Assembly (NCBI GenBank): GCA_030622115.1
Contig: JAUXGN010000024.1
Coordinates: forward strand, 1 to 37,118
DNA from: Candidatus Eiseniibacteriota bacterium
GTDB lineage: Bacteria > Joyebacterota > Joyebacteria > Joyebacterales > Joyebacteraceae
DNA length: 37,118 bases
Direction: 5' to 3'
In this document: piece after piece, positions 13,668 to 26,078 of the stretch
Layout of the letters: each line of letters begins with the position of its first letter
Position numbering within the stretch: the first letter of the stretch is position 1
The notes under the pieces: generated by a model
Database searches by the model: none
Told to the model about the DNA's origin: nothing
Seen by the model: only the letters and a program-made list of their open reading frames with translations
Position numbers and translations under genes: made by a program

Positions 13668-14711
13668 CTATCGCATCACTTGTATGGCAAAGACGTTCTG
13701 CAGGAAGAACAGGGCGATGAAGGTGATCGCACAGGCGATGACCGGCGTGGTCACCCAACCCGCAGCGATCTCACCCAGCACCCGGAAACGAACCCCCCGT
13801 CCACCCTTCAAGATGCCCAGACCCAGCACAGCTCCGATCACCGCCTGCGAACTCGAGACCGGCACCAATGGGATCGCCGGCAGGCCGTGCCCCGTCAGCC
13901 AGCCACTCAGTTGCTGACTCGAAAACAGGTAGAGCACTGCCGCCTGCGACAGCACCACGATCAGCGCCATCTGGGGCGTCAGTCGCATCAGGCTGCCACC
14001 CACGGTTTCCATCACACGCCGCGAATAGGTGAAGATGCCGATCGAGATGGCAATGCCGCCGATCAGGAAGAGCTGCTGGGTGCCCGTGAGAGTGAAAAGA
14101 CCGAGCACAGTCAGTGTCTTGAACGGAGCTACCGGCACGAAGACGCCCATCACATTGGCAATGTTGTTGGCGCCGAGACTGTACGAGCCAAAGGCGCCGA
14201 CCAGGATCAACCCCCACCGCATGAGCATGTCTTCCCAGAGCAGATGGACGGGGAAGCGGCGGGATACCCTGATGAACACCGAGTAGAAGAGCATGGCGAA
14301 CGCCGCGGCCAGGAGCGGGCAAGCCACCCAGGTCGTGACGATCTTGATGAGGGCCGACGCATCGGTCGGCGAGCCTGAGAAGAGATTCCAGCCGATGATC
14401 GAACCCACGATGGCCTGCGACGTGGACACGGGCAACGACATGCGCGTCATCGTGTAGACCGTGAAGCCAGCCGACAGAGCCACCATGAACGCACCGCCGA
14501 GCGCGTTGACTACACCGAGCTTGCCGAGGGTATGGGAGGCGCCCGCGCCGCCGACCACCGCACCCAGGATAACAAACGCGCTGCAGATGACGGCCGCTGT
14601 CGTGAACCGCATCATGCGCGTCCCAACGGCGGTCCCGAAAACGTTGGCGGCGTCGTTGGCGCCCAGGGACCAGCCCAGGAACAGGCCACTCGACAGGAAG
14701 AACAGCAGCAC
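13668..14711 (-). CDS. PiT-family inorganic phosphate transporter
   Basis: A 347-residue, highly hydrophobic protein with two inverted PiT repeats. Each carries the family signature: GANDAANVFGTAVGTRMM near residue 17 and GANNIANVMG in the second half, plus MSLPVSTSQAIVGSIIGW and LPAIPLVPVSSSQAVIGAVLG. About ten membrane segments are apparent. PiT carriers move phosphate, often as a metal-phosphate complex, with H+ or Na+. It is the last gene of the nine-gene operon. The GTG start at 14711 shares one base with the TAG stop of the DUF47 gene, a classic PiT-accessory pair. It is shorter than E. coli PitA (about 500 residues) but normal for the compact bacterial/archaeal type. Confidence 0.92.
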   Translation of the reverse strand: MLLFFLSSGLFLGWSLGANDAANVFGTAVGTRMMRFTTAAVICSAFVILGAVVGGAGASHTLGKLGVVNALGGAFMVALSAGFTVYTMTRMSLPVSTSQAIVGSIIGWNLFSGSPTDASALIKIVTTWVACPLLAAAFAMLFYSVFIRVSRRFPVHLLWEDMLMRWGLILVGAFGSYSLGANNIANVMGVFVPVAPFKTLTVLGLFTLTGTQQLFLIGGIAISIGIFTYSRRVMETVGGSLMRLTPQMALIVVLSQAAVLYLFSSQQLSGWLTGHGLPAIPLVPVSSSQAVIGAVLGLGILKGGRGVRFRVLGEIAAGWVTTPVIACAITFIALFFLQNVFAIQVMR

Positions 14712-15355
14712 TATACGGTCCTCTTGATGGCGTAGATGGCGAGCCGATCGGCCACGTCTTCGGCCGCGTCGGAAACGCGGTCGATATTCAGGGCGAAGTA
14801 GCGCAGGTGGATCTTGCGGGCCAGATCCACATCGGACTCGAAGATCTTGCGCTTGAGGTCCATGGCGACCCTGTCCCCTTCTTTCTCGTGGAAGTGGACC
14901 TTGTGCAAATGGTCGTTCACGCTACGGGGATCTCGAAAGAAGGCGCGTGCAGCCAGGACCACGGCCTCCGAGGTGTGCGTCGCGATGTCGGCCAGGTCAC
15001 GCCACTCCTTCCCCAGTTCCGGTATCATCTCAGGACGCTCGACCAGGAAGAGACTCAAGGTATTCTTGGCTGTATCGATGACGTCGTCCATGGTCTCGAG
15101 CAGATCCAGCACGTCCCCGCGCGACTCGGGGATCAGGGAGTAGCGGTACAGGTGGCCTTCGATGGCCCTCCGTAGATCGTCGGCACGGTTCTCCAGAGCC
15201 CCGATGGCATTGTAGCACTCCTCGAAACGCTCCATGTCCCCGGCCAGATACTCGGCCACACCCTTTTGGAAGACTAACGCTCCTTCGCTGATCGCGTCCA
15301 GAAAATCGTCTATCTGAGTAGTCAGCTCATTGGTCTGTTTGAAAAGAGTCGTCAT
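14711..15355 (-). CDS. DUF47/PhoU-like PiT accessory protein
   Basis: A 214-residue, all-helical, charged protein of the DUF47 (PhoU-like) family. Typical parts are EGALVFQKGVAEYLAGD, ENRADDLRRAIEGHLYR, LIPESRGDVLDLLETMDDVID and VHFHEKEGDRVAMDLKRKIF. PhoU-like proteins bind metal clusters and regulate phosphate transport; DUF47 genes are nearly always next to pit genes. Here the stop overlaps the pit start by one base, suggesting a fixed ratio of the two products. It lies 69 bases after the TctA gene and is expected to be cytoplasmic, at the membrane face of the transporter. Confidence 0.9.
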   Translation of the reverse strand: MTTLFKQTNELTTQIDDFLDAISEGALVFQKGVAEYLAGDMERFEECYNAIGALENRADDLRRAIEGHLYRYSLIPESRGDVLDLLETMDDVIDTAKNTLSLFLVERPEMIPELGKEWRDLADIATHTSEAVVLAARAFFRDPRSVNDHLHKVHFHEKEGDRVAMDLKRKIFESDVDLARKIHLRYFALNIDRVSDAAEDVADRLAIYAIKRTV

Positions 15356-15424
15356 GGCTTTGGGCTCCTTTGCTGAAACCTGACCGGCGTCGCCGCGAGG
15401 ACAGTGATGTCCTTGCGCCCCCTC

Positions 15425-16942
15425 TCATGATCTCGGCTCTCGCCGCTTGGCGGCCCTGAGACGGATGAGAGGCATCGCGAAGGACAGGATGGCCAGCACC
15501 AATATGACGGCACTGACCGGGCGAGTGAAGAAAATCGAGGGGTCGCCCATGATCAGGGCGCGGCGGAAATTCGACTCAGCCATGTAGCCCAGGATCAGAG
15601 CCAGCACCAGGGGCGCCGTTGGGAAACCGTAGCGTCGCAGGATCCAGCCGAGGATTCCGAAGATCAGGCAGATCAGCACATCAAAGAGGGAATTGGCCAC
15701 GCCGAAGCTGCCCACGAACGCGATGATCAGAATCACTGGGTAGAGTAGTGCCTTGGGCGCTGAGATGATCCTCACCCACAGCCTGTTGCCCAGGACTCCG
15801 AGAACCAGCAGCACGAAGTTACCCAGGACCAAGCTGGCAAAGAGACCGTAGACCAGATAGGAGTTCTTGCCGGCGAAGAGCTCGGGACCCGGAGTCACAC
15901 CGTGCAGCATCAGAGCGCCGATCAGAACCGCCGTAGCAGCACTGCCGGGAATGCCCAGGGTCAACAGGGGTACGAGAGCCCCGCCCACCGATCCGCCGGC
16001 TGCCGCCGCGGGGGCTGCGATCCCTTCCAGGCTGCCCTTGCCGAATTCCTCGGGCTTCCTGCTGACACGCCGCGCCTCATTGTAAGCGATGAAGGCCGCG
16101 ATGGTCGCGCCCGCCCCAGGTACGACGCCGATGATCGTTCCGAGCACAGAGGACTGCAGAATACTGCGCTTGAGTGCCAGCACCTCCCTGCGCCCCGGCA
16201 TCTTGCTGGAGAAGGTCTGCAGGGTCGTCTGCACCTGCTCCATGCGTTCGATATTCAGCAGGACCTCCCCCACAGCGAAGAGACCGATCAGGGCAGGGAT
16301 GAAGGCGATGCCGTCGATCAACTCGGGCCTGTCGAAGGTGTAGCGCATGAAACCGGTGATGGGATCCAGGCCGATGGTCATCAAGAGCAGACCGAGCAGT
16401 GTACTCACGGCGCCCTTGAGCATGTTCTTTGAAGCCATCGATACCACGATCGTCAGGCCGAAAATTGCCAGGGCGAAGTACTCCGGCGGTCCGAACGCAA
16501 GCGCCGCCTTGGCCAAGGGCACCGAGAAAGCGATGAGGATGAGAACGCCCAGGGTGCCGCCAGTGCAGTTGGCGATGAGGGCTGTTCCCAATGCGCGCCC
16601 CGGCTCCCCGCGCTTTGTCAGAGCGTAGCCGTCGAAGGCCAGGGCTACCGCGGCGGGCGTTCCGGGAGTATTGATGGCAATGGCGGTGATGCAGCCGCCG
16701 TACGCCGAAGCCGTGTAGACGGCTACCAGAAGGATCAGGGCGATCAGCGGATGCATACCATAGGTGAACGGCACCATCAGAGCCACACCAGTGGATGCCG
16801 ACAACCCCGGCATGACGCCCACAAAGATCCCGATGATGATACCGGCCACGACAACGATGCCGGGTTCCCACCAGGCGATGCCAGGCAGACCGGCGCCCAC
16901 GAGCGTACCGAAGCCCTCCATCAGGTTGTGCAGGATCTCCAT
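15425..16942 (-). CDS. tctA: tripartite tricarboxylate transporter large permease (TctA family)
   Basis: A 505-residue membrane protein with about 11-12 segments. It has the TctA signatures GIIIGIFVGVMPGLSASTGVALMVPFTYGM, AIAINTPGTPAAVALAFDGY (the conserved Gly-Thr-Pro loop), GVVPGAGATIAAFIAYNEAR and TLGIPGSAATAVLIGALMLHGV. TctA is the large permease of binding-protein-dependent TTT systems, which import citrate and other carboxylates. The ATG at 16942 has GGAGAG five bases upstream and follows the TctC-TctB gene by 13 bases. A longer open frame exists but lies inside the preceding gene. Its placement between a phosphatase pair and DUF47-PiT suggests a substrate linked to phosphate (inference). 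Confidence 0.93.
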   Translation of the reverse strand: MEILHNLMEGFGTLVGAGLPGIAWWEPGIVVVAGIIIGIFVGVMPGLSASTGVALMVPFTYGMHPLIALILLVAVYTASAYGGCITAIAINTPGTPAAVALAFDGYALTKRGEPGRALGTALIANCTGGTLGVLILIAFSVPLAKAALAFGPPEYFALAIFGLTIVVSMASKNMLKGAVSTLLGLLLMTIGLDPITGFMRYTFDRPELIDGIAFIPALIGLFAVGEVLLNIERMEQVQTTLQTFSSKMPGRREVLALKRSILQSSVLGTIIGVVPGAGATIAAFIAYNEARRVSRKPEEFGKGSLEGIAAPAAAAGGSVGGALVPLLTLGIPGSAATAVLIGALMLHGVTPGPELFAGKNSYLVYGLFASLVLGNFVLLVLGVLGNRLWVRIISAPKALLYPVILIIAFVGSFGVANSLFDVLICLIFGILGWILRRYGFPTAPLVLALILGYMAESNFRRALIMGDPSIFFTRPVSAVILVLAILSFAMPLIRLRAAKRREPRS

Positions 16943-16955
16943 CGAATCTCTCCGT

Positions 16956-18464
16956 CTAATGGAACCAGGCGCCTGCAGGTAGCGGCAGCCCCAGGATGTG
17001 AATGAACACGACGTAGCAGAATGCGAGCATGATGACCGCGACCGCCGCCGCCATGACGTGGCGCCGGTAGCCGATGGCGTAGATACCACCCAGCAACAGG
17101 ACTGCCGCCGCGGGGAAGAACCCAACGCGAGGCAGGACGGCAACAAAGACCACCATCAACAGGATGATGCCCAGTACCAGCCTGACGCGACCGTGCTCGA
17201 CGCTCCGGTGGTTGTGGAGATCGGCGCGGATTTCCATGACAGCGAAGAGGGCCAGTACCGCCGACCATATCAGCGGAATCGTCGCCGGTCCCACATTCTG
17301 CCCTTGTGTCGGTGGCGGGAAGCCCCAGGCGAGCACGAAGAACATTGCCGCCACCGCAGCGGACAGACCGGCAACCACGACCACTCCCGTCGGACGTCGT
17401 CGGCGCACACGGAGCACGATGGCCATGATCACGGCCGTCACGGGGATCATTAACCACCCAAGGACGCGAATACGCCGCCCGGTTGGATCTTCGTCCGACG
17501 CCAGTATCTTCGCCATGCGCAGATACTTGACTGAATCGCGGCTGCCGCGATCAACCAGGGCTGTGAACTCATCGTGCCGGTAGAAGACGGCCTTCGCCGA
17601 GTTCAGCGCCACAAAGGAGAGCCACTCCTCGTCCCGGCTGATCTTGCCCAGGAGATCGTCCAGATAGGCGATCACCTCCGGCGGCGTGCCCTTCCTGACG
17701 GCGAAGCCGCGCCACATGATCTCGTCGGGCAGATCGTAGCCCAGTTCGAGCAGTGTCGGCGTCTCCGGGAAACGCTCCAGGCGCTCCCGAGCCGAGACCG
17801 CGGCGATGTGAAGGTCGGGCCGTCCCTTGGTATCCTCGGGATTGCCCACGTAGACAACTCCGTGCCTGCCGAGCAGGGCCGCAACAGCCTCACCACCTCC
17901 GTCGTAGGGAACCCACGTCGCGGTCATCCCCACCTGATCCCAGGTCTTGACGGCCATCAGGTGATCCAGGCTGCCCACACCGGGACCCACCCAGATCTGA
18001 CGCCCCCCCTTCGCGCGGGCATCGGCCACAATGTCCTCGAAGGTAACCACGTCGCTGTGACGGTTGGTAATCAGGGCCTCGGGCGCCTCTGTCAGACAGA
18101 CCAGGAAGTGGAAATCGTCCATGCCGAAATTGCTCCGGGTGATCTGCACCGTGGAGACAAAGGTGGCCGGCGCGGCCAGCACGGTGTAGCCGTCAGCCTT
18201 GTTGCCAAGCACGGCGCGCATAGCCACGGCGCCCGAGCCGCCGTAGCGGTTCTCGATCACCATTGGGACATCGGTGTACTTGCGGGCCACCTTGGCCACG
18301 AGGCGCGCGGTCAGGTCGATGGCGCCGCCGGGCTTGGCGTGCACGATGATGGCAATCGGCCTATCGGGATAGGCCGCATGTGTGGTCGGCGGCGGTGCGA
18401 GCGCGAGAGCCGCAGCCACAAGCGCGGGCAATCCGAGGAGCCGGGTTGTCAGCCTCATTCTCAC
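16956..18464 (-). CDS. fused TctC-type binding protein and TctB-type small permease
   Basis: A 502-residue fusion. A signal peptide (about 1-30, LPALVAAALALAPPPTTHA) leads a Bug/TctC-type solute-binding domain (about 31-330): YPDRPIAIIVHAKPGGAIDLTARLVA, VIENRYGGSGAVAMRAV, DGYTVLAAP, GVGSLDHLMA and FPETPTLLELGYDLP. After a linker come five predicted membrane segments from about residue 340 (VLGWLMIPVTAVIMAIV onward). The last four form the TctB small permease (about 365-502), ending with a Gly-Leu-Pro-Leu-Pro segment typical of TctB. TctC is normally a free periplasmic protein, so tethering it to the permease is unusual. The GTG at 18464 overlaps the PPX stop as GTGA; an ATG two codons later is the alternative start. 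Together with TctA it makes a complete TTT system from two genes. Confidence 0.88.
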   Translation of the reverse strand: MRMRLTTRLLGLPALVAAALALAPPPTTHAAYPDRPIAIIVHAKPGGAIDLTARLVAKVARKYTDVPMVIENRYGGSGAVAMRAVLGNKADGYTVLAAPATFVSTVQITRSNFGMDDFHFLVCLTEAPEALITNRHSDVVTFEDIVADARAKGGRQIWVGPGVGSLDHLMAVKTWDQVGMTATWVPYDGGGEAVAALLGRHGVVYVGNPEDTKGRPDLHIAAVSARERLERFPETPTLLELGYDLPDEIMWRGFAVRKGTPPEVIAYLDDLLGKISRDEEWLSFVALNSAKAVFYRHDEFTALVDRGSRDSVKYLRMAKILASDEDPTGRRIRVLGWLMIPVTAVIMAIVLRVRRRRPTGVVVVAGLSAAVAAMFFVLAWGFPPPTQGQNVGPATIPLIWSAVLALFAVMEIRADLHNHRSVEHGRVRLVLGIILLMVVFVAVLPRVGFFPAAAVLLLGGIYAIGYRRHVMAAAVAVIMLAFCYVVFIHILGLPLPAGAWFH

Positions 18465-19384
18465 GTCGTTTCCCTGCCCTTCACGAAGCGATCATAGAAC
18501 AGGCCGTGTCGCAGGCCTCGATCGCTGATGGTCAACTCGGTGGCGCCAAGCTTGCGCATCACCGTCATCACAATGGCGGCGCCGGCCAGGATCACGTCCG
18601 CCCGCTTCGGCATCAACCCAACCGTCTCTCGTCGTTCCTCGACAGTCCGAACACGGTACATCTCCATCTGCCGCTCGACCTCGCCGAGTGCGAGCGTGGA
18701 ACCCTGGATCACGTCCGGGTCGTAGACCTTCATCATGTGGTGGACGGCGCCCATACTCGTGACCGTGCCCCCCATGCCGACCAGCACATCCACTCCCGTC
18801 TCCAGGCGATCGAACTCCCCTTCGAGATGAGCAACCATGGCCGCCAACTCATCGCGCGTCACGGGATCCGACTTGCAGAATTCCTCAGTGGGACGGCGCG
18901 AACCCACGTCCAGACTGAAACGCTCGACGATTCTCTCGCCCTCCCCGAAAATGAACTCGGTGCTGCCTCCACCGGTGTCGAAGACAACCACACTGCCCTT
19001 TCCCGTCCCCAGACCGGAGAGTACCGCCAGATACGAGAGCCTCGCTTCCTCCTCGCCGGGCACCACTTCCACATCCAGTCCGCAGCGTTCGCGCACGGCG
19101 TCGGTGAAGACATGCGCATTGCTCGCCGAGCGCAGAGCCATGGTGCCGACGGCCACGATCGTCGCAGCACCAAGCTCGGAGGCCTTGGCCTGGAGAGCGG
19201 CGATGGCTTCCACGTTGCGCAGAATGGCCTCGGCGCCAAGCTCACCGGTCTCGTGCAGCCCCTCGCCGAGACGCGTGACCTCGGTGAAGTCGCCGAGCAC
19301 GTTGGTCCGCCCATCGCTCACCGCCCCCACATGCATCTTGAGGGAGTTCGTGCCGATGTCAATGACCGCATGAGTTCCCATCAC
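18461..19384 (-). CDS. Ppx/GppA-family phosphatase (exopolyphosphatase-like)
   Basis: A 307-residue, single-module member of the Ppx/GppA family (the short form). The ASKHA-fold motifs are clear: AVIDIGTNSLKMHVG at the N-terminus, VVVFDTGGGSTEFIFGEG (phosphate 2 loop) and VLVGMGGTVTSMGAVHH. Family enzymes remove terminal phosphates from polyphosphate or hydrolyse pppGpp; the short form lacks the C-terminal HD-type module, and sequence alone does not separate the two activities. It is coupled on both sides: its ATG overlaps the CYTH stop (ATGA) and its stop overlaps the TctC-TctB start. A CYTH partner and a phosphate transporter downstream favour polyphosphate as substrate (inference). Confidence 0.9.
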   Translation of the reverse strand: MMGTHAVIDIGTNSLKMHVGAVSDGRTNVLGDFTEVTRLGEGLHETGELGAEAILRNVEAIAALQAKASELGAATIVAVGTMALRSASNAHVFTDAVRERCGLDVEVVPGEEEARLSYLAVLSGLGTGKGSVVVFDTGGGSTEFIFGEGERIVERFSLDVGSRRPTEEFCKSDPVTRDELAAMVAHLEGEFDRLETGVDVLVGMGGTVTSMGAVHHMMKVYDPDVIQGSTLALGEVERQMEMYRVRTVEERRETVGLMPKRADVILAGAAIVMTVMRKLGATELTISDRGLRHGLFYDRFVKGRETT

Positions 19385-19971
19385 GCGCCCTCCATGCCGA
19401 CGGCCTTCTTCATGGCCTTGATGTAGTTGACGTTGGTGAAGGCGTCGAGGCCGAGTTCCCGCACAACCTCCATGACCAGCGAGGGGTCGATGTGCTCTAC
19501 GGCGGCAGTCTTCTGGGCCACGCCGTTGAAGGTGACGTCGGCCACCTCGACGATTGTATCGCGGATCATGAAACCGTGACGCTTCTTCGTCACCTTCACC
19601 ACGGCCAACTCGTCGGCGCCGCCGACTACCTCGTTGATGAACTGGTCATAGGCATATTCGTCGCGCGCCATCTCGGGACTCTTCAACCCGAAGGCCAGGA
19701 AGATCCTGGCGGCGTCATCCGCGGGACAGGGAAAGCCGACTTTCAACACCGGCAGCCACTGCTCGAGGGTGTCGTTGTTCGTGTCCTCCAGCTGTTTGAT
19801 ATCCAGCAATCCGTCGCGGATCTTCACGTTGTTGCCGCTTGAGCGGCATATGATGTAGTCCTCGGCGCTTTCGAGCACGCGCGTGCATTCGTGAGTCCTG
19901 ACATTGCTGTCGACCTCACCAAGGTCCTCGGCGAAGATTCGGTATTCCCAGCGGGGTATGATCTTGTTCAT
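19381..19971 (-). CDS. CYTH-like (triphosphate tunnel) protein
   Basis: A 196-residue protein. The layout suggests the eight-stranded CYTH/TTM tunnel: RWEYRIFAEDLG at the start, alternating charged strands DYIICRSSGNNVKIRDGLLDIKQL, LAVVKVTKKRHGFMI and DTIVEVADVTFNG, and a C-terminal helix. CYTH enzymes include tripolyphosphatases, thiamine triphosphatases and CyaB cyclases, normally with an ExExK motif. Here only a degenerate W-E-Y-R is seen, so it is divergent and the family call is moderate. The start MNKIIPRW at 19971 has GGAGAGGGAC upstream; the longer open frame is rejected because it reads through the preceding gene. Its stop overlaps the PPX start (ATGA). CYTH-PPX pairs, sometimes with CHAD proteins, are known in polyphosphate metabolism. 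Confidence 0.65.
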   Translation of the reverse strand: MNKIIPRWEYRIFAEDLGEVDSNVRTHECTRVLESAEDYIICRSSGNNVKIRDGLLDIKQLEDTNNDTLEQWLPVLKVGFPCPADDAARIFLAFGLKSPEMARDEYAYDQFINEVVGGADELAVVKVTKKRHGFMIRDTIVEVADVTFNGVAQKTAAVEHIDPSLVMEVVRELGLDAFTNVNYIKAMKKAVGMEGA

Positions 19972-19999
19972 GTCCCTCTCCCCTGCGTTCTCGCCACGA

Positions 20000-20776
20000 T
20001 CAGTTGGCAACCTCGAACACGTAGAGCCTGTCATCGGCATCGGACACGATGTAGATCCTGCCATCGAGGCCTATCGCCACGCCTTCCGGCTTGTTGACGG
20101 GCAGATCAAAGACATCACCGACACCGCTCTCGGGATCCCAGGTGAACAGTACCTTGGCCTGGTCGCTTACGACCCACATCAAGCCGGTGCTCGCATCATG
20201 GCAGATCCCGGAGTAGTCAATTCCGGCGCCCAGATTGTGCTCGCTCGCGACTGTGAAATCGGCGTTGAGCCGAAAGAGCAATGCCGGGTTCTTCTCGTTC
20301 ACGACGAAGACGGTGTGGTCCGCGTCGCGAATCGCAATCCCTTCCAGACCACTATTGGTCTCCGTACCCGGGACGTCCACCGCGTGCCGCGACAGCTCCT
20401 CACCACTGGTCGAGAGCCTGACTATCTCGCGCGATCCCTCCTCGACCACCATCAGGGTGTTGTCCGAAGCATCGAAGGCCACACCTTCGAGATCCACTCC
20501 GGTGTAGTCGAGTGTGGCGAGCACGGCGCCGTTCATACCCAGCTCATACACATGATTGGTGGCGTCGCTGACCGCATAGAGACTCACGCCGTCCCCGGCG
20601 AGGCTCAGCCCCGACGGTTCGGGCATCGCAACACCATAGCTACCGAGTTCCAGCAACTCGGCAGTCGGCGTGACCACGCCCTGTCGGTCGCAGCCTGTGA
20701 CCGGCCCGAGCAGGAACAAGAGGCTGAGCAACAATGCCGCGCGGCACAAGCCGCGGTTGCTAGTTGTTGGACGCAC
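20000..20776 (-). CDS. SdiA-regulated-type beta-propeller lipoprotein
   Basis: A 258-residue exported lipoprotein. The N-terminal hydrophobic stretch ends in a lipobox, with Cys29 in GPVTGC. The rest reads as a propeller of the SdiA-regulated (YjiK) type: MPEPSGLSLAGDGVSLYAVSD, TGVDLEGVAFDASDNTLMVVEEG, NSGLEGIAIRDADHTVFVVNEKNP, GIDYSGICHDASTGLMWVVSDQ and KPEGVAIGLDGRIYIVSDADD. Related propellers include phytase-like 'esterase-like' proteins, so a surface phosphoesterase role is conceivable but unproved. The GTG start at 20776 overlaps the preceding LTD lipoprotein gene by 17 bases, and the CYTH gene begins 28 bases after its stop. Confidence 0.85.
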   Translation of the reverse strand: MRPTTSNRGLCRAALLLSLLFLLGPVTGCDRQGVVTPTAELLELGSYGVAMPEPSGLSLAGDGVSLYAVSDATNHVYELGMNGAVLATLDYTGVDLEGVAFDASDNTLMVVEEGSREIVRLSTSGEELSRHAVDVPGTETNSGLEGIAIRDADHTVFVVNEKNPALLFRLNADFTVASEHNLGAGIDYSGICHDASTGLMWVVSDQAKVLFTWDPESGVGDVFDLPVNKPEGVAIGLDGRIYIVSDADDRLYVFEVAN

Positions 20777-21731
20777 CGGGCGTCGGCGTGCCGAAGGTCG
20801 CCCACGTGTCGCTGCCGTCGGGCAGGCGACCGTAGGAAACGTCCGTGGTCTGTTCGCCGTAGGTCAGGGTGTCCACGGGCACGGAACTCTGGTCGTAGAG
20901 ACCAACCTGCTCGCCGCTGGCACTCAGCTTGAAGCCCGCGTGGATCCCCAGTCCGACGTCATCGAGACCGTCCGCCCAGATCAGGAGGTAGCCGCCCGCA
21001 GGCACCGTCGTGCCGCTCGGAACGGTCCACTTGACCGGATCTGTCAGATCGTCGGTCATGGTCCAATCGCCGATGTCGATGTCCCCGGTCGTCTCGTTGT
21101 AAAGCTCAATCCAATCCGAGAAATCAGCATAATCGGGATCCTGGTTGATTGCATCGTTCGACGCCAGGAACTCGTTGATGAACAGGCCGTAGGAAACAGA
21201 AGCCGCGTTCGCGGCGCCGGGGGTCGGCGGGTCCATGGTGACCCAGTTGTCAGTGCCGTCAGGACTGCGGCCGATGGAGATGTCGGTCGTCTGCGCACCG
21301 AATTCATACCCGTCTCTGTACTGCCCGGAACCGTCCTTCAGGGTGACGGCGTCGCCACTCGCTCCCAGCTTGAAGTTCGCGTGCAGCCCCACTCCCACTT
21401 CGTCCAGGTCGTCACACCAGATCAGGAGATAGCCGCCCGCGGGAACGGTCGTGCCGGCGGGAATCGTCCAAGAGGCGCCGGTATCGGATATGATCCAACC
21501 GCCGATGTCCTCCCGAGTCGTGCCCTTGTTGTAGAGTTCCACCCAATCGGCGAAGTCGCCGTGATCAGGGTCCTGATTCACGGTGTCGTTGGACGCCAGT
21601 AGTTCGTTGATCAGCACGTCGCCGAAACTGGCCTGCGGATCGGGGTCCGTAGGCAGATCCATGTCGCAGGCCGAAAGACTGAAGAGCAGACAGGCGAGTA
21701 GCGCCGCCGACACCTTCATTTTCCTCACCAT
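20760..21731 (-). CDS. lipoprotein with two lamin-tail (LTD) domains
   Basis: A 323-residue lipoprotein. Its signal peptide ends in a lipobox with Cys22 (LFSLSAC). Two LTD domains of about 135 residues follow, each with INE-LASND, DW-ELYN, a TTVPAGGYLLIW strand, HA-FKL-ASG and ending TPGA-N. LTDs are Ig-like modules common on secreted bacterial nucleases, phosphatases and phytases, where they are thought to bind membranes or ligands. No enzyme domain is attached here, so it may be an accessory surface subunit. The ATG at 21731 (MVRKMKV) has GAGG six bases upstream. It sits 39 bases after the porin gene and overlaps the next gene by 17. Confidence 0.87.
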   Translation of the reverse strand: MVRKMKVSAALLACLLFSLSACDMDLPTDPDPQASFGDVLINELLASNDTVNQDPDHGDFADWVELYNKGTTREDIGGWIISDTGASWTIPAGTTVPAGGYLLIWCDDLDEVGVGLHANFKLGASGDAVTLKDGSGQYRDGYEFGAQTTDISIGRSPDGTDNWVTMDPPTPGAANAASVSYGLFINEFLASNDAINQDPDYADFSDWIELYNETTGDIDIGDWTMTDDLTDPVKWTVPSGTTVPAGGYLLIWADGLDDVGLGIHAGFKLSASGEQVGLYDQSSVPVDTLTYGEQTTDVSYGRLPDGSDTWATFGTPTPGASNN

Positions 21732-21770
21732 CTCGTCCTCGCTTTCCGTTGTCACTTGCATCGAACGTTG

Positions 21771-23009
21771 CTAGAAGGCGACCATGACGCGCGCCTGGAG
21801 AACGCCGTAGTCATCGTCGCCCACGAGGCTGCCGCCGTCGGTGGCGTTCATGTCATTGTTCACCATCGTGTAGTTCGCGTAGATCTTTACATTCGGGTTG
21901 GCATACCAGGTGAGGCCCGCCGTCAAGGTGGTGGACTCGCCGCCGAGCACGTCCTTGTCTGACAGGTCGGACATGCTGTAGCGAAGCGCCAGCTCCAGGG
22001 CGCCCATTCTGCTGCCGGGTTTGATCCTGCCGAACTCGCCGCTGGTGTGGTCGTAGGGATGCGTGTCGTTGGTAAGGAAGTAGCTTGCGAAGAGATAGCC
22101 GCCCGCGAAGTTCAGGTCCTCCAGACCATCGACTCTTGTCACATTCGTGGTTATGTACTCGCCCTGAACCATCAGACGATTCAGAACGAAGGCAAGCTCC
22201 CCACCGTACTGCTCGAAGTCATCCACAGCCTGGATGTAACCGGTGTTCAGGTACTTGTAGTCGGTGACGTGTGTCTCATTGCGAGTACGAAACCGGATCT
22301 CGCCGCCGGTGCCGTCGAGAGCCTCGAACGTCGGATGGCGCCAAGCGTACGCGGCGCCCAGATGCAGCACACGGCCTTCCTCGTTGATCGGGACTGTCGT
22401 GAAGCGGCCCACGAGATTCAGGTTCATGTCATCATCGGTGGTTTCCCAAACCGTGACGTCCGGTCCGCAAGCGCCGACCGCGATGCGATAGAGATCGCTC
22501 CACTTGGCGACCTCCAACCCCATGCGACGGCCGATCGTGAGAGGATCCGTACCCTGGCTGCGCTCCATGAACATGATGTACCGGCTGGTGGTGTTCTCCT
22601 CGAGACCGAACGGCGCACGGAAGTTGCCGAACCGCACATAGCCCTGCCTATTGAAGACGTTGTCGAAGCGAAGGTACGCATCCTTGATCTCGACGGCTTC
22701 CTCATCGAAGTCCGTGTCGATCTCCGCGTACCAGTCTTCCCAGAGGATCGCCTTCCACGCCATGCGGGCGCGGCGCAGCTGAACGCCGTCGCCGAGCGAG
22801 TTCTTGTCCTCGATGTAGAAGGCCGTGTCCAGATAGATGCGCGAATCCACCCACCACATGAACTCGCCGTCGTCGGATGTGAAGACCAGGATTCCATCCT
22901 TGCTGGCGGCATCCAGTTCCGTGAGCTTGGCATGGACCCCCGCGCTCGACAGCAGCATGACGGTGATAACCACAACCAGAACCAGACGCGGAATCTTCAC
23001 CTTCTCCAT
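21771..23009 (-). CDS. phosphate-selective porin O/P family protein
   Basis: A 412-residue outer-membrane protein with a signal peptide (LVLVVVITVMLLSSAGVHA). The mature part matches the OprO/OprP porin pattern: FMWWVDSRIYLDTAFYIEDK, VQLRRARMAWKAILWEDWYAEIDTDF, EIKDAYLRFDNV, YVRFGNFRAPFGLEENTTSRYIMFMER, and RMGALELALRYSMSDLSD. It ends with an amphipathic strand and a terminal Phe (LQARVMVAF), as expected for BamA-inserted barrels. OprP takes up phosphate and OprO pyrophosphate/polyphosphate in Pseudomonas; selectivity cannot be read from this sequence. It is first in the nine-gene operon, with AAGGAG before the ATG and a good promoter at 23069-23098. No recognisable Pho box was found. Confidence 0.9.
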   Translation of the reverse strand: MEKVKIPRLVLVVVITVMLLSSAGVHAKLTELDAASKDGILVFTSDDGEFMWWVDSRIYLDTAFYIEDKNSLGDGVQLRRARMAWKAILWEDWYAEIDTDFDEEAVEIKDAYLRFDNVFNRQGYVRFGNFRAPFGLEENTTSRYIMFMERSQGTDPLTIGRRMGLEVAKWSDLYRIAVGACGPDVTVWETTDDDMNLNLVGRFTTVPINEEGRVLHLGAAYAWRHPTFEALDGTGGEIRFRTRNETHVTDYKYLNTGYIQAVDDFEQYGGELAFVLNRLMVQGEYITTNVTRVDGLEDLNFAGGYLFASYFLTNDTHPYDHTSGEFGRIKPGSRMGALELALRYSMSDLSDKDVLGGESTTLTAGLTWYANPNVKIYANYTMVNNDMNATDGGSLVGDDDYGVLQARVMVAF

Positions 23010-23068: not shown

Positions 23069-23098
23069 ACGCTAGCACCGCAGGGCTCCAATTGTCAA
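23069..23098 (-). promoter_or_regulatory. promoter of the porin-to-PiT operon
   Basis: On the minus strand a perfect TTGACA (23093-23098), an 18-base spacer and TAGCGT (23069-23074) preceded by TGC (extended -10). The start is predicted near 23062, about 53 bases before the porin ATG. I looked for a PhoB-like direct repeat and did not find one. Confidence 0.6.
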
Positions 23099-23239: not shown

Positions 23240-25333
23240 CTACTTCAAGAGCAGCATTTTCTGCTCCGACATTCCTAATGTGGTCGCGATGCGCGCGAAG
23301 TAGACGCCGCTGGCCAGCCCGCGTCCTCTGTCGTCGCTGCCGTCCCAGCGCACCGCGTGCTCACCGCTCGACAGAAGCCCCCTGTGCAGGGTGCGCACCA
23401 GATGTCCGGCCACGTCGTAGACGCTGACCGTGACGTCGTCGGCCTGCCTGAGCGAGAAGTGGATTTCCGTCCGTGGATTGAAGGGATTCGGAACAACACG
23501 TACGCCATAGAGCGCGGACAGAGCTGTGTCGGGTGTCTCGTCCTCGACATCCGTCGGGCCTTCGTTGGCCTCACCCGGCGTTGGGTTCATCATGCTGAAC
23601 CAGAAGCTCTCACCGTCCGGGAGCCGGCCCTCGCTCACGTCGGCCGTCTGTTCTGCGAAGTCGTAGAAATCCAGCCCGCTCGTGCTGTCGGCGGCAGTGA
23701 ACATGATCACTTCCCCGGATGATGAGAAGCTGAAGCCGAGAGTCAACTCGTCGAAGACCAGGAAGTCACCTGCGGCGAGGAACGTCCCTCCGGGGATCAT
23801 GTACTTGAGGTTCTCGCTGCGGTTGTCTGACAAGAACATGCCACCTATGTCGACCGTCGACGTGCCGCGGTTGTAAAGCTCCACCCAATCATCGACCCCG
23901 CCACCAATGCTCGTGCTGAGAAACTCGTTGATGCAAACGTCCGAGTAGAGGGCCGACGCGCCATTGCTGGAACCCGGCGTGGGAGTCGACAGGTACTCGG
24001 GCGAATAGCCAAAGGAGAAATGGGCATCTCTGCCGCTGCCCAGATCGGGCAGAAAACCGATGGCGATGTCGGCAGCCACCAATCCGTACTTGAAACCGTG
24101 GATCTTGGCGTTGCCCAGATCCTCGGTGTCGTAGAGACCGACCTCCTCACCGCCGCTCGACAGCTTGAATGAGGCGTGCAGGGGGCCGTCGCCAGGATCG
24201 TTGTCGGCCCAGACCACGAGGAATTCCCCCGGCGCGAGGGAGTACCCGGCGGGGATCTCCCACTCGTGCCGATCGTCGAAGTTGTCGGTCAGGAACATGC
24301 CGCTCAGGCTGACCGTCTCTGTACCCGGATTGTAGATCTCGATCCAGTCCTCGAACTCGCCCATCTCGTCAGTGATGCCGGTGCTGTTGCTCGCGATGAT
24401 CTCGTTAATGACCAGCAGCGGGCGCTCGTGGCCGACGGTGTAGGCGCGGTACTCGGTGGGCGCGTCGCCGGGCCACATGTTCGTCTGCGCAATATCGTCG
24501 GTCGCCAGCGCGTAGTACTTGACCAGAGTGCCGTTCGCCTGGGCCGGGATCACGGCGCCGTAGACGGAGTCCGCGGGGGCGCCGTCGCCGTGGGCGCCAT
24601 CATCGAACATCGGTTGCGAAACGTAGCCGCCACCCAGATCCACGAGCAGCTCGACCGTGTCGAGGCCTTCCTCGTCAAAGGCGGTGACGGTGACGGTCAC
24701 GTTGTCGGCCGCCGTCGGAAGACGAATGTCGCGCCCGCCGTCATTGCAGATGGGGGCCGCATTGGTCGTGAAAGTGCTGTTCACAACACCCGGGGTGCCA
24801 CCCACCGGCACGCTGGGATCCCAGCTCGAAGGCGGCTCATTGTCCATCAGCGGGTTGATCAGTTCCAGGGACGGTCCATCGCCATCCGGCGAGGTTGGCC
24901 AGGGGCCGGCGTCGTCGTACTCCACGAAGTCGCGTAGGATATCGTCGTCGTCGAAGAGATTGACTTGATCGCCGCCGTTGCCCAGGCCAAAGCCCAGTCC
25001 GCCGGGATCGAAGTCGTTCGCGTTGTAGTTGGTCACACCCGGGTACTGGGCCGTAAAGATCGTGTTGTCCGCCGCGATGACGAGGTACTCGTCCACGCCG
25101 AGTATACCTTCCAGGTAACACTTCGGATGACCCGGATCGCTGTCGAGCAAGTACCAATCGAAGAGATTCACGGATGCCGGCCCCGTGTTGTAGAGCTCGA
25201 TAAACTCCACGTCCGGATCGAAGGAAGAGTTGTACATGATCTCGTTGATCACCACGTCGGCCAGGACCGGCGTCGCCGCCAGGACGACGGCCAGCGTCAT
25301 CAGACCGAAGATGCTCTTACCACATCTCATCAT
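23240..25333 (-). CDS. secreted protein with three LTD domains and FlgD-like C-terminus
   Basis: A 697-residue exported protein. A signal peptide (about 1-25, LMTLAVVLAATPVLA) is followed by a first LTD (VVINEIMYNSSFDPDVEFIELYN; YNANDFDPGGLGFGLGNGGD; SPDGDGPSLELINP), an Ig-like region (about 190-310) and a second LTD (LVINEIIASNSTG...DWIEIYN). A third LTD (VCINEFLSTS...DDWVELYN) and a FlgD-like Ig module (GVRVVPNPFNPRTEIHFSLR to KMLLLK) complete it. No catalytic domain is visible, so it is probably a surface or matrix protein. The first LTD is close to the one in the neighbouring 25473-26078 gene, so these are paralogues. AGAGG precedes two consecutive ATGs. The spacer before it contains CGGTGAT-type repeats at 25361, 25382 and 25391, which could be binding sites. 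Confidence 0.87.
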   Translation of the reverse strand: MMRCGKSIFGLMTLAVVLAATPVLADVVINEIMYNSSFDPDVEFIELYNTGPASVNLFDWYLLDSDPGHPKCYLEGILGVDEYLVIAADNTIFTAQYPGVTNYNANDFDPGGLGFGLGNGGDQVNLFDDDDILRDFVEYDDAGPWPTSPDGDGPSLELINPLMDNEPPSSWDPSVPVGGTPGVVNSTFTTNAAPICNDGGRDIRLPTAADNVTVTVTAFDEEGLDTVELLVDLGGGYVSQPMFDDGAHGDGAPADSVYGAVIPAQANGTLVKYYALATDDIAQTNMWPGDAPTEYRAYTVGHERPLLVINEIIASNSTGITDEMGEFEDWIEIYNPGTETVSLSGMFLTDNFDDRHEWEIPAGYSLAPGEFLVVWADNDPGDGPLHASFKLSSGGEEVGLYDTEDLGNAKIHGFKYGLVAADIAIGFLPDLGSGRDAHFSFGYSPEYLSTPTPGSSNGASALYSDVCINEFLSTSIGGGVDDWVELYNRGTSTVDIGGMFLSDNRSENLKYMIPGGTFLAAGDFLVFDELTLGFSFSSSGEVIMFTAADSTSGLDFYDFAEQTADVSEGRLPDGESFWFSMMNPTPGEANEGPTDVEDETPDTALSALYGVRVVPNPFNPRTEIHFSLRQADDVTVSVYDVAGHLVRTLHRGLLSSGEHAVRWDGSDDRGRGLASGVYFARIATTLGMSEQKMLLLK

Positions 25334-25472: not shown

Positions 25473-26078
25473 CTACCGGTACAGGCTCTTGACCTGACCC
25501 CAAGTGGACTCCTCGACGGGGGTCTCATCCAGCACGCCGGGGTTGCCGCCATCTACGCCGGCTATCCAGCAGCCCGCATCACTGAAGTCGGCACAATCCA
25601 GATTGGCCAGCAGCAGGGATGGACCGTCTCCGTCGGGCTCTGTCGGCCAGGGGTCATTGTCATCGTACGTCATCTCGAAGAGCACGACATCGAACTCATC
25701 CAGGATGAAGATCGTGTCACCGCCGCCGCCCAGACCGAAGCCCAGTCCCTCGGGATCGAAATCGTTAGCGTTCAGATTCGTCACAGTGGGATACACGGCC
25801 GCGAAATCACTGAAATCGGCGACCACGACCAAGACATCACCGGGATTGATCGTACCGACCAAAACACAGTGGGGGTGAGTCTCATGGGGAACACCCGGAT
25901 CGCCGTCGACCATGTGCATGCCCGTCAGATCGATCGGAACAGTGCCTCTGTTGTACAGCTCGATCCAATCACCACCGCCATTGTTGTCCTTGTACATGAA
26001 CTCGGCGATGACCAGGTCCTGGGCGGAAGCGACGCCGGCAAGAGCGACGATGGCCAGGATTACGAGTGCCTTGCGCAT
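25473..26078 (-). CDS. secreted single-LTD protein with W-G-x-x-K tail
   Basis: A 201-residue exported protein. Signal peptide MRKALVILAIVALAGVASA, then one LTD: LVIAEFMYKDNNGGGDWIELYN, GDVLVVVADFSDF, LNANDFDPEGLGFGLGGGGD and PDGDGPSLLLANL. It ends VEESTWGQVKSLYR. The LTD is clearly paralogous to the first LTD of the next gene (23240-25333), but there is no FlgD-like module; the last 14 residues instead match the end of the beta-helix protein at 11948-13501. This suggests a short C-terminal signal shared by unrelated secreted proteins. The ribosome-binding site is AGGAGG, seven bases before the ATG, inside a sequence that recurs about 125 bases upstream. Confidence 0.87.
   Translation of the reverse strand: MRKALVILAIVALAGVASAQDLVIAEFMYKDNNGGGDWIELYNRGTVPIDLTGMHMVDGDPGVPHETHPHCVLVGTINPGDVLVVVADFSDFAAVYPTVTNLNANDFDPEGLGFGLGGGGDTIFILDEFDVVLFEMTYDDNDPWPTEPDGDGPSLLLANLDCADFSDAGCWIAGVDGGNPGVLDETPVEESTWGQVKSLYR

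Follow-up and report, generated by a model that had tools for sequence, protein, structure and literature searches.

The window analysed here is a stretch of 37,118 nucleotides (contig JAUXGN010000024.1) from Candidatus Eiseniibacteriota bacterium. On its minus strand, at positions 13668-23009, it carries nine genes in which a tripartite tricarboxylate transporter (TTT) is embedded among genes for handling phosphate and polyphosphate. All nine open reading frames (ORFs) were found at the coordinates given by a first-pass annotation made from the sequence alone, and the families named there were borne out, for eight ORFs by Pfam scores above cut-off and for the ninth by an AlphaFold model and its matches in the PDB. 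In the direction of transcription, the cluster begins with an OprO/P-type outer-membrane porin (21771-23009; Porin_O_P, 183 bits), followed by a lipoprotein with two lamin-tail domains (LTD; 20760-21761; 126 bits, 1.4e-36, in two stretches; lipobox LSAC) and a propeller lipoprotein of the SdiA-regulated/YjiK-like type (20000-20776; SdiA-regulated, 77 bits, 1.3e-21). Next come a cytosolic, divergent CYTH/triphosphate-tunnel protein, hereafter CYTH-like (19381-19971), and a short, single-core exopolyphosphatase, PPX (18461-19384; Ppx-GppA, 189 bits, 1.2e-55). The transporter is encoded by a TctC-TctB fusion in one ORF (16956-18464; TctC, 98 bits, 1.3e-27, residues 53-287; TctB, 63 bits, 5.7e-17, residues 364-496) and by the large membrane subunit TctA (15425-16942; PF01970, about 491-492 bits), the sole match to this family in the genome; the set qualifies as a TTT system in that all three components are encoded together by neighbouring genes with Pfam support. 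The cluster ends with a DUF47/PhoU-like PiT accessory protein (14711-15355; PhoU_div, 84 bits, 1.7e-23), which is the second, operon copy in this genome, and a PiT-type phosphate transporter (13668-14711; PHO4, 192 bits, 2.5e-56), matched by the NCBIfam sulfate permease model far below its cut-off. The family calls for PiT, DUF47, PPX, and TctA are secure; a comparison with PHROGs gave nothing of weight.

The genes are tightly packed, with spacings of -17 (LTD/propeller), 28 (propeller/CYTH-like), -4 (CYTH-like/PPX), -4 (PPX/TctC), 13 (TctB/TctA), 69 (TctA/DUF47), and -1 bases (DUF47/PiT), as first reported; only the porin/LTD gap depends on the start codon, being 9 bases if the first ATG is used and 39 if translation starts at an inner one. 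The overlaps suggest that the nine genes are co-transcribed. The single promoter proposed for them fared less well: the candidate at 23069-23098 (minus strand) has a perfect -35 element, TTGACA, at 23098-23093, but its -10 element, TAGCGT, matches at only three of six positions and the candidate is absent from the listing of a consensus scan, so that it is at best a possible weak promoter.

The transporter is a co-inherited partner of CYTH/PPX enzymes

A scan for the CYTH-like family, with one genome per species, yielded 31 loci, and the module joining a TTT to CYTH/PPX enzymes proved to be kept in at least six bacterial phyla. The possibility, raised in the first-pass annotation, that the gene order might be conserved in no relative thus did not materialize. 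At each of the 19 distinct loci found beyond the window, TctA and the CYTH-like gene share a strand and are separated by 2.3-5.7 kb. The CYTH-like-PPX pair neighbours TctCBA in Cloacimonadota, WOR-3, and Bacillota. The order in Cloacimonadota is ArsR-CYTHlike-PPX-DUF47-PiT-TctCB-TctA-porin-LTD-propeller (L068, L073, L074, L078, L136, L137, and partial loci), and WOR-3 loci contain the Cloacimonadota partners rearranged as PPX-TctCB-TctA-(exported CYTH-type protein)-DUF47-PiT-porin-LTD-propeller-CYTHlike; in both groups, the LTD genes adjoin the porin. KSB1 and Calditrichia share CYTHlike-canonical CYTH-TctCB-TctA, to which KSB1 adds DUF47-PiT-Na/Pi transporter; in L057 and L131, a Na/Pi transporter comes after PiT or stands in its place. 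All seven Bacillota loci read CYTHlike-PPX-TctC-TctB-TctA and have no porin, LTD, or DUF47-PiT genes. Accordingly, the co-occurrence of TctA with CYTH-PPX and DUF47-PiT predicted from the window holds insofar as TctA is built into the module in several phyla, but the gene order varies and the module can do without the porin, the lipoproteins, and DUF47-PiT.

The association was also assessed without ASCERTAINMENT, on Cloacimonadota genomes that had not been ascertained through CYTH. Among 125 such genomes, 19 encode the CYTH-like protein, 10 encode TctA, and nine encode both (hypergeometric P = 5.6e-8, calculated as if the genomes were independent, which is not the case); in eight of the nine, a single contig carries the two genes, no more than about 7 kb apart. 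The tenth TctA carrier (G158) has TctCB-TctA-porin-LTD starting at a contig end.

Phylogenetic analysis tells the same story. TctAs of the operons are split off by a branch (support 100/98) from 18 other TctAs, which include further TctAs of the same Bacillota genomes and plasmid-borne ones. Furthermore, the trees of CYTH, PPX, TctC, and TctA each recover a Cloacimonadota group (with high support) and a Bacillota group (88-99). Given its own TctA clade and the concordance of the trees, we conclude that the operon possesses a TTT of its own, which was inherited jointly with the enzymes. Collectively, these results identify a conserved module that has a TTT subfamily dedicated to it and support its TTT as a module component much more strongly than a first reading of the sequence could. 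The plasmid TctAs nearest to the operon clade (Ilyobacter, Sinorhizobium, Vibrio, Halocatena) were considered as carriers of the module and rejected, as they lie in ordinary contexts.

Within its own phylum, the operon is accessory, which corrects the picture given by the window alone. Among 20 genomes of the phylum, all of one family, a full TctA is found only in that of the window; with one full copy and one remnant, TctA is not a feature of the phylum. The remnant, in a related genus (G013), consists of decayed TctA fragments (L011:7360-7876) before an intact DUF47-PiT pair, the scar of an operon deletion; the window DUF47 is 86% identical to the copy beside this scar and 48% identical to a core copy (G000:C50). 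DUF47 as such is present in 17 of the 20 genomes, nearly always as a different copy, 46-50% identical to that of the operon, and these non-operon copies adjoin a PiT where fetched; the window's genome has such a core DUF47-PiT copy in addition to the operon one. Another genome (G008) retains porin-CYTHlike-PPX up to the contig end, with the lipoproteins missing. Thus, at least three genera of the family had parts of the gene order, which have been repeatedly lost or moved. A degenerate TctA-like match in G037 has no operon-type neighbours and was rejected as a relative of the operon.

Properties of the encoded proteins

Profile searches against Pfam, NCBIfam, and PDB gave no match for the CYTH-like protein, and hhalign failed to match it to canonical CYTH; its assignment comes from an AlphaFold model (pLDDT 93.7), for which the 30 best PDB matches found by Foldseek are all of the triphosphate-tunnel/CYTH type (probability 1.00, TM about 0.5). 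The protein thus shares with NeuTTM, YgiF, AtTTM3, and Vtc4p a predicted eight-stranded tunnel fold and many invariant basic residues: of the 11 positions invariant in the 31-member family (R7, E9, R11, K50, R52, K59, K77, K129, R131, E142, E159), eight are basic. It differs from these proteins in having R7-x-E9-x-R11, in 31 of 31 members, where the enzymes have E-x-E-x-K, and, lacking both the ExExK motif and the full acidic metal-2 patch, we do not file it as a tripolyphosphatase. Canonical ExExK CYTH enzymes are present in sister loci; in KSB1, Calditrichia, and L080, such an enzyme occupies the position of PPX, and its two PDB relatives include NE1496 (NeuTTM). The latter has been called a highly specific hydrolase of tripolyphosphate (PPPi) (PMC3440374). 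In addition, CYTH-type proteins with signal peptides, as read from their sequences, are encoded directly downstream of TctA (L059:4358-5317, L060:4290-5315, and L151:2747-3715 on the minus strand). These proteins, near or below the Pfam cut-off, occur in WOR-3 and have a homologue in Bacillota (G188); an exported protein of this type beside TctA points toward a source of substrate outside the cell. With these loci, a divergent but widespread CYTH-like family gains a genomic context.

PPX, of about 305 amino acids, contains a Ppx-GppA domain with the phosphate-binding motifs DIGTNS and DTGGGSTE, and its closest PDB chains are exopolyphosphatases (9e-53). In size, single core, and PDB matches it resembles the short exopolyphosphatases typified by Rv0496 of Mycobacterium tuberculosis, which prefers short chains (PMC3411833). 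The predicted operon enzyme differs from these in having a CYTH-like partner and in falling below the cut-off of the NCBIfam model exo_poly_only. The porin, predicted to form a Porin_O_P barrel, has OprP (3e-20) and OprO (9e-18) as its only PDB relatives; it shares family and closest structures with these phosphate and pyrophosphate porins but is distant from them. The propeller (AlphaFold model, pLDDT 85.9) has Escherichia coli YjiK (3qqz) as its best PDB match, and its lipobox cysteine, Cys29, is invariant in eight homologues.

The transporter has all three components of TctCBA systems (TC 2.A.80), from the same families and in the tctC-tctB-tctA order. It departs from them in the separate TctA clade, in being wired to polyphosphate/triphosphate enzymes, in the fusion of TctC to TctB in diderms (the two are separate genes in Bacillota), and in the replacement of dicarboxylate contacts. 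In TphC, T155 and T242 hold the deep carboxylate, Q150 shapes the pocket, which has no positive charges, and S156 occupies the position of the serine that contacts C4 ligands (PMC8556258). In the operon TctCs, with residue equivalence read via the TphC-like 8hkb sequence, the positions of Q150, T155, S156, and T242 are taken by P161, L/V/N/T, D167, and M/L/I, respectively, whereas K173, W158, and N208-P209 are invariant in the family. The aspartate at the serine position is nearly operon-specific, being also present in one of about ten non-operon TctCs. Of the PFxAGGxxD ligand loop (PMC8556258), GG or GS and the aspartate are kept and PF is changed to H/Y-x. The replaced contact positions argue against an ordinary dicarboxylate and would suit a metal-bound or other anion; they bear on the substrate rather than on whether the protein belongs to the TTT family.

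Source and identity of the substrate

PPX and canonical CYTH enzymes have linear inorganic phosphate chains as their shared class of substrate. No PPK1 gene occurs in any of the 21 genomes with a TTT-bearing operon (PPK2 was not searched), and PPX and CYTH therefore probably act on an imported substrate: for lineages that lack PPK1 yet encode PPX, CYTH, and a dedicated importer, uptake from outside is the simplest supply. Among 19 genomes with a CYTH-like gene in which no TctA was found, four encode PPK1 (three Thiobacillus and one Bacteroidota), and these four have CYTHlike-PPX without a linked TTT. Moreover, a second family of anion carriers, SLC13/DASS, can fill the slot of the TTT, as in L080 (porin-LTD-SLC13/DASS-CYTHlike-CYTH) and on Citrobacter freundii plasmid NZ_CP026058.1 (L162:8442-12727), where LysR-CYTH-CYTHlike-SLC13 is followed by a gene for a 486-amino-acid protein. 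Such replacement argues that the enzymes need a carrier rather than merely having one as a chance neighbour. C. freundii is a cultured carrier of the version with the swapped transporter; the SLC13 locus was looked for in E. coli genomes and none was found.

We infer the substrate, direction, and activities of the system from these observations, and consider it an even call whether it takes up short chains of inorganic phosphate and hydrolyses them in the cytosol, the likeliest substrate being tripolyphosphate or short polyphosphate, which may be bound to metal. In this scheme, the porin would let the polyanion cross the outer membrane, with the two lipoproteins binding it or handing it on. 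The TctC domain, tethered to TctB, would capture the chain, and TctA would import it with an ion gradient. Cytosolic PPX and the CYTH-like protein, or a NeuTTM-like CYTH enzyme in some lineages, would bind the chain and cut it to phosphate, and DUF47-PiT, or a Na/Pi transporter in other lineages, would move the orthophosphate. More tentatively, the TTT subfamily, with TctC and TctB tethered in diderms, may be a dedicated importer of inorganic oligophosphate for the cytosolic CYTH and PPX enzymes, a job that SLC13/DASS carriers would do elsewhere, including on the Citrobacter plasmid. The phosphate-bearing substrate proposed in the first-pass annotation thus receives support, albeit of a less direct kind, from the absence of PPK1, the exported CYTH-type proteins beside TctA, and the loss of contact residues in TctC. 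Its remark that TTT systems are undescribed in phosphate acquisition stands: among open-licence papers, our searches found none that joins a TTT to polyphosphate metabolism and none on a dedicated bacterial importer of phosphate chains. To our knowledge, no such importer is known. If the proposal is right, import provides CYTH and PPX enzymes with a source of substrate, bacteria of anaerobic sediments and digesters can draw on environmental condensed phosphates as nutrients, and the range of TTT transporters extends beyond carboxylate-like substrates. An open question in PMC3440374 is whether living cells contain free tripolyphosphate at all and what specific triphosphatases exist for.

Several observations weigh against import of phosphate chains. 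PPK1 is absent also from 35 of 35 comparison genomes without the operon, that is, lineage-wide. The characterised substrates of TTT systems are carboxylates or, like sulfolactate, compounds closely related to them (PMC5812351), and PPPi is a poor substrate for E. coli PPX (PMC3440374). Part of the metal-2 acidic patch is missing from the CYTH-like protein, with R7 at the position of AtTTM3 E2 and no acid at that of E171 (residues from PMC4641920; correspondence read from motif order rather than from a structure-based residue alignment). The polyphosphate polymerase Vtc4p has basic residues at these two positions, as the CYTH-like protein does in part; to judge by these residues, the latter may serve to bind chains, or even to synthesise them, instead of cutting them. 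Finally, the regulators of the Bacillota loci are of the PrpR_N type, a family named for carboxylate catabolism, and no phosphate-responsive regulator was found.

The main rival, which we regard as unlikely, is carboxylate uptake powered by polyphosphate: PPX and CYTH would break down internal polyphosphate, PiT would export the phosphate together with cations or protons, and the gradient so formed would drive import of di- or tricarboxylates through the TTT. Polyphosphate-accumulating bacteria exchange phosphate and carboxylates, and the operon resembles that physiology in bringing together PPX, PiT, and a carboxylate-type importer. Consistent with this rival, the TTT and SLC13/DASS carriers that share one slot are both of carboxylate type, PiT or Na/Pi carriers are frequent partners, and a CYTH-like protein partly resembling Vtc4p could supply polyphosphate without PPK1. 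However, the 21 TTT-bearing operon genomes differ from those accumulators in having no PPK1 (PPK2 and VTC were not searched), none of the seven Bacillota operons has PiT or DUF47 genes, the partners scanned include no conserved carboxylate-metabolising gene, and the known dicarboxylate contacts are lost from TctC.

Slightly less likely still is that the TTT imports an organic phosphate, a phosphorylated carboxylate, or a metal-citrate-phosphate complex, as part of a phosphate-scavenging set. D167, in place of the ligand serine, and the retained GG..D anion loop of TctC would suit a metal-bound ligand, and the propeller lipoprotein also matches the Phytase-like model (48 bits). Its identification as a phytase is nevertheless unsupported, given that YjiK is its best structural match and that the top 50 contain no phytase; nor is an esterase or phosphatase for organic phosphates conserved in the loci, and CYTH and PPX are cytosolic and, by family, act on phosphoanhydride chains. 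Co-inheritance of transporter and enzymes without any common substrate is improbable: parts of the module do occur alone, as CYTHlike-PPX fusions without a TTT in Thiobacillus and as CYTHlike-DUF47-PiT in spirochaetes, but the module recurs over six phyla, keeps its partners when rearranged (WOR-3 versus Cloacimonadota), and shows near-exclusive phylum-wide pairing in Cloacimonadota along with a dedicated TctA clade.

Related and neighbouring genes

The spirochaete loci just mentioned (L084:7307-10667 and L085:4792-7183) have no PPX, and a LysR regulator is next in L084. CYTH-like/PPX fusions of 497 amino acids, without a TTT, are encoded on a Cupriavidus plasmid (L163:7982-10485) and in Thiobacillus (L081:10001-12479), in both cases adjoining a second CYTH-type protein of about 320-330 amino acids. 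In four operons, a DUF498 (PF04430) gene is inserted between the CYTH-like gene and the next one (L058:4583-5002, L075:701-1102, L077:1049-1441, and L137:11190-11582). Divergent PrpR_N-PAS-sigma54 activators adjoin Bacillota operons (L061:7653-9692, L150:4808-6868, and L151:8627-10600) and may sense the ligand. In the window itself, two further LTD-type proteins are encoded on the minus strand just upstream of the operon, at 23240-25333 and 25473-26078; the larger combines LTD repeats with a FlgD-Ig/type IX-like C-terminal sorting domain, and the smaller is LTD-like by eye only.

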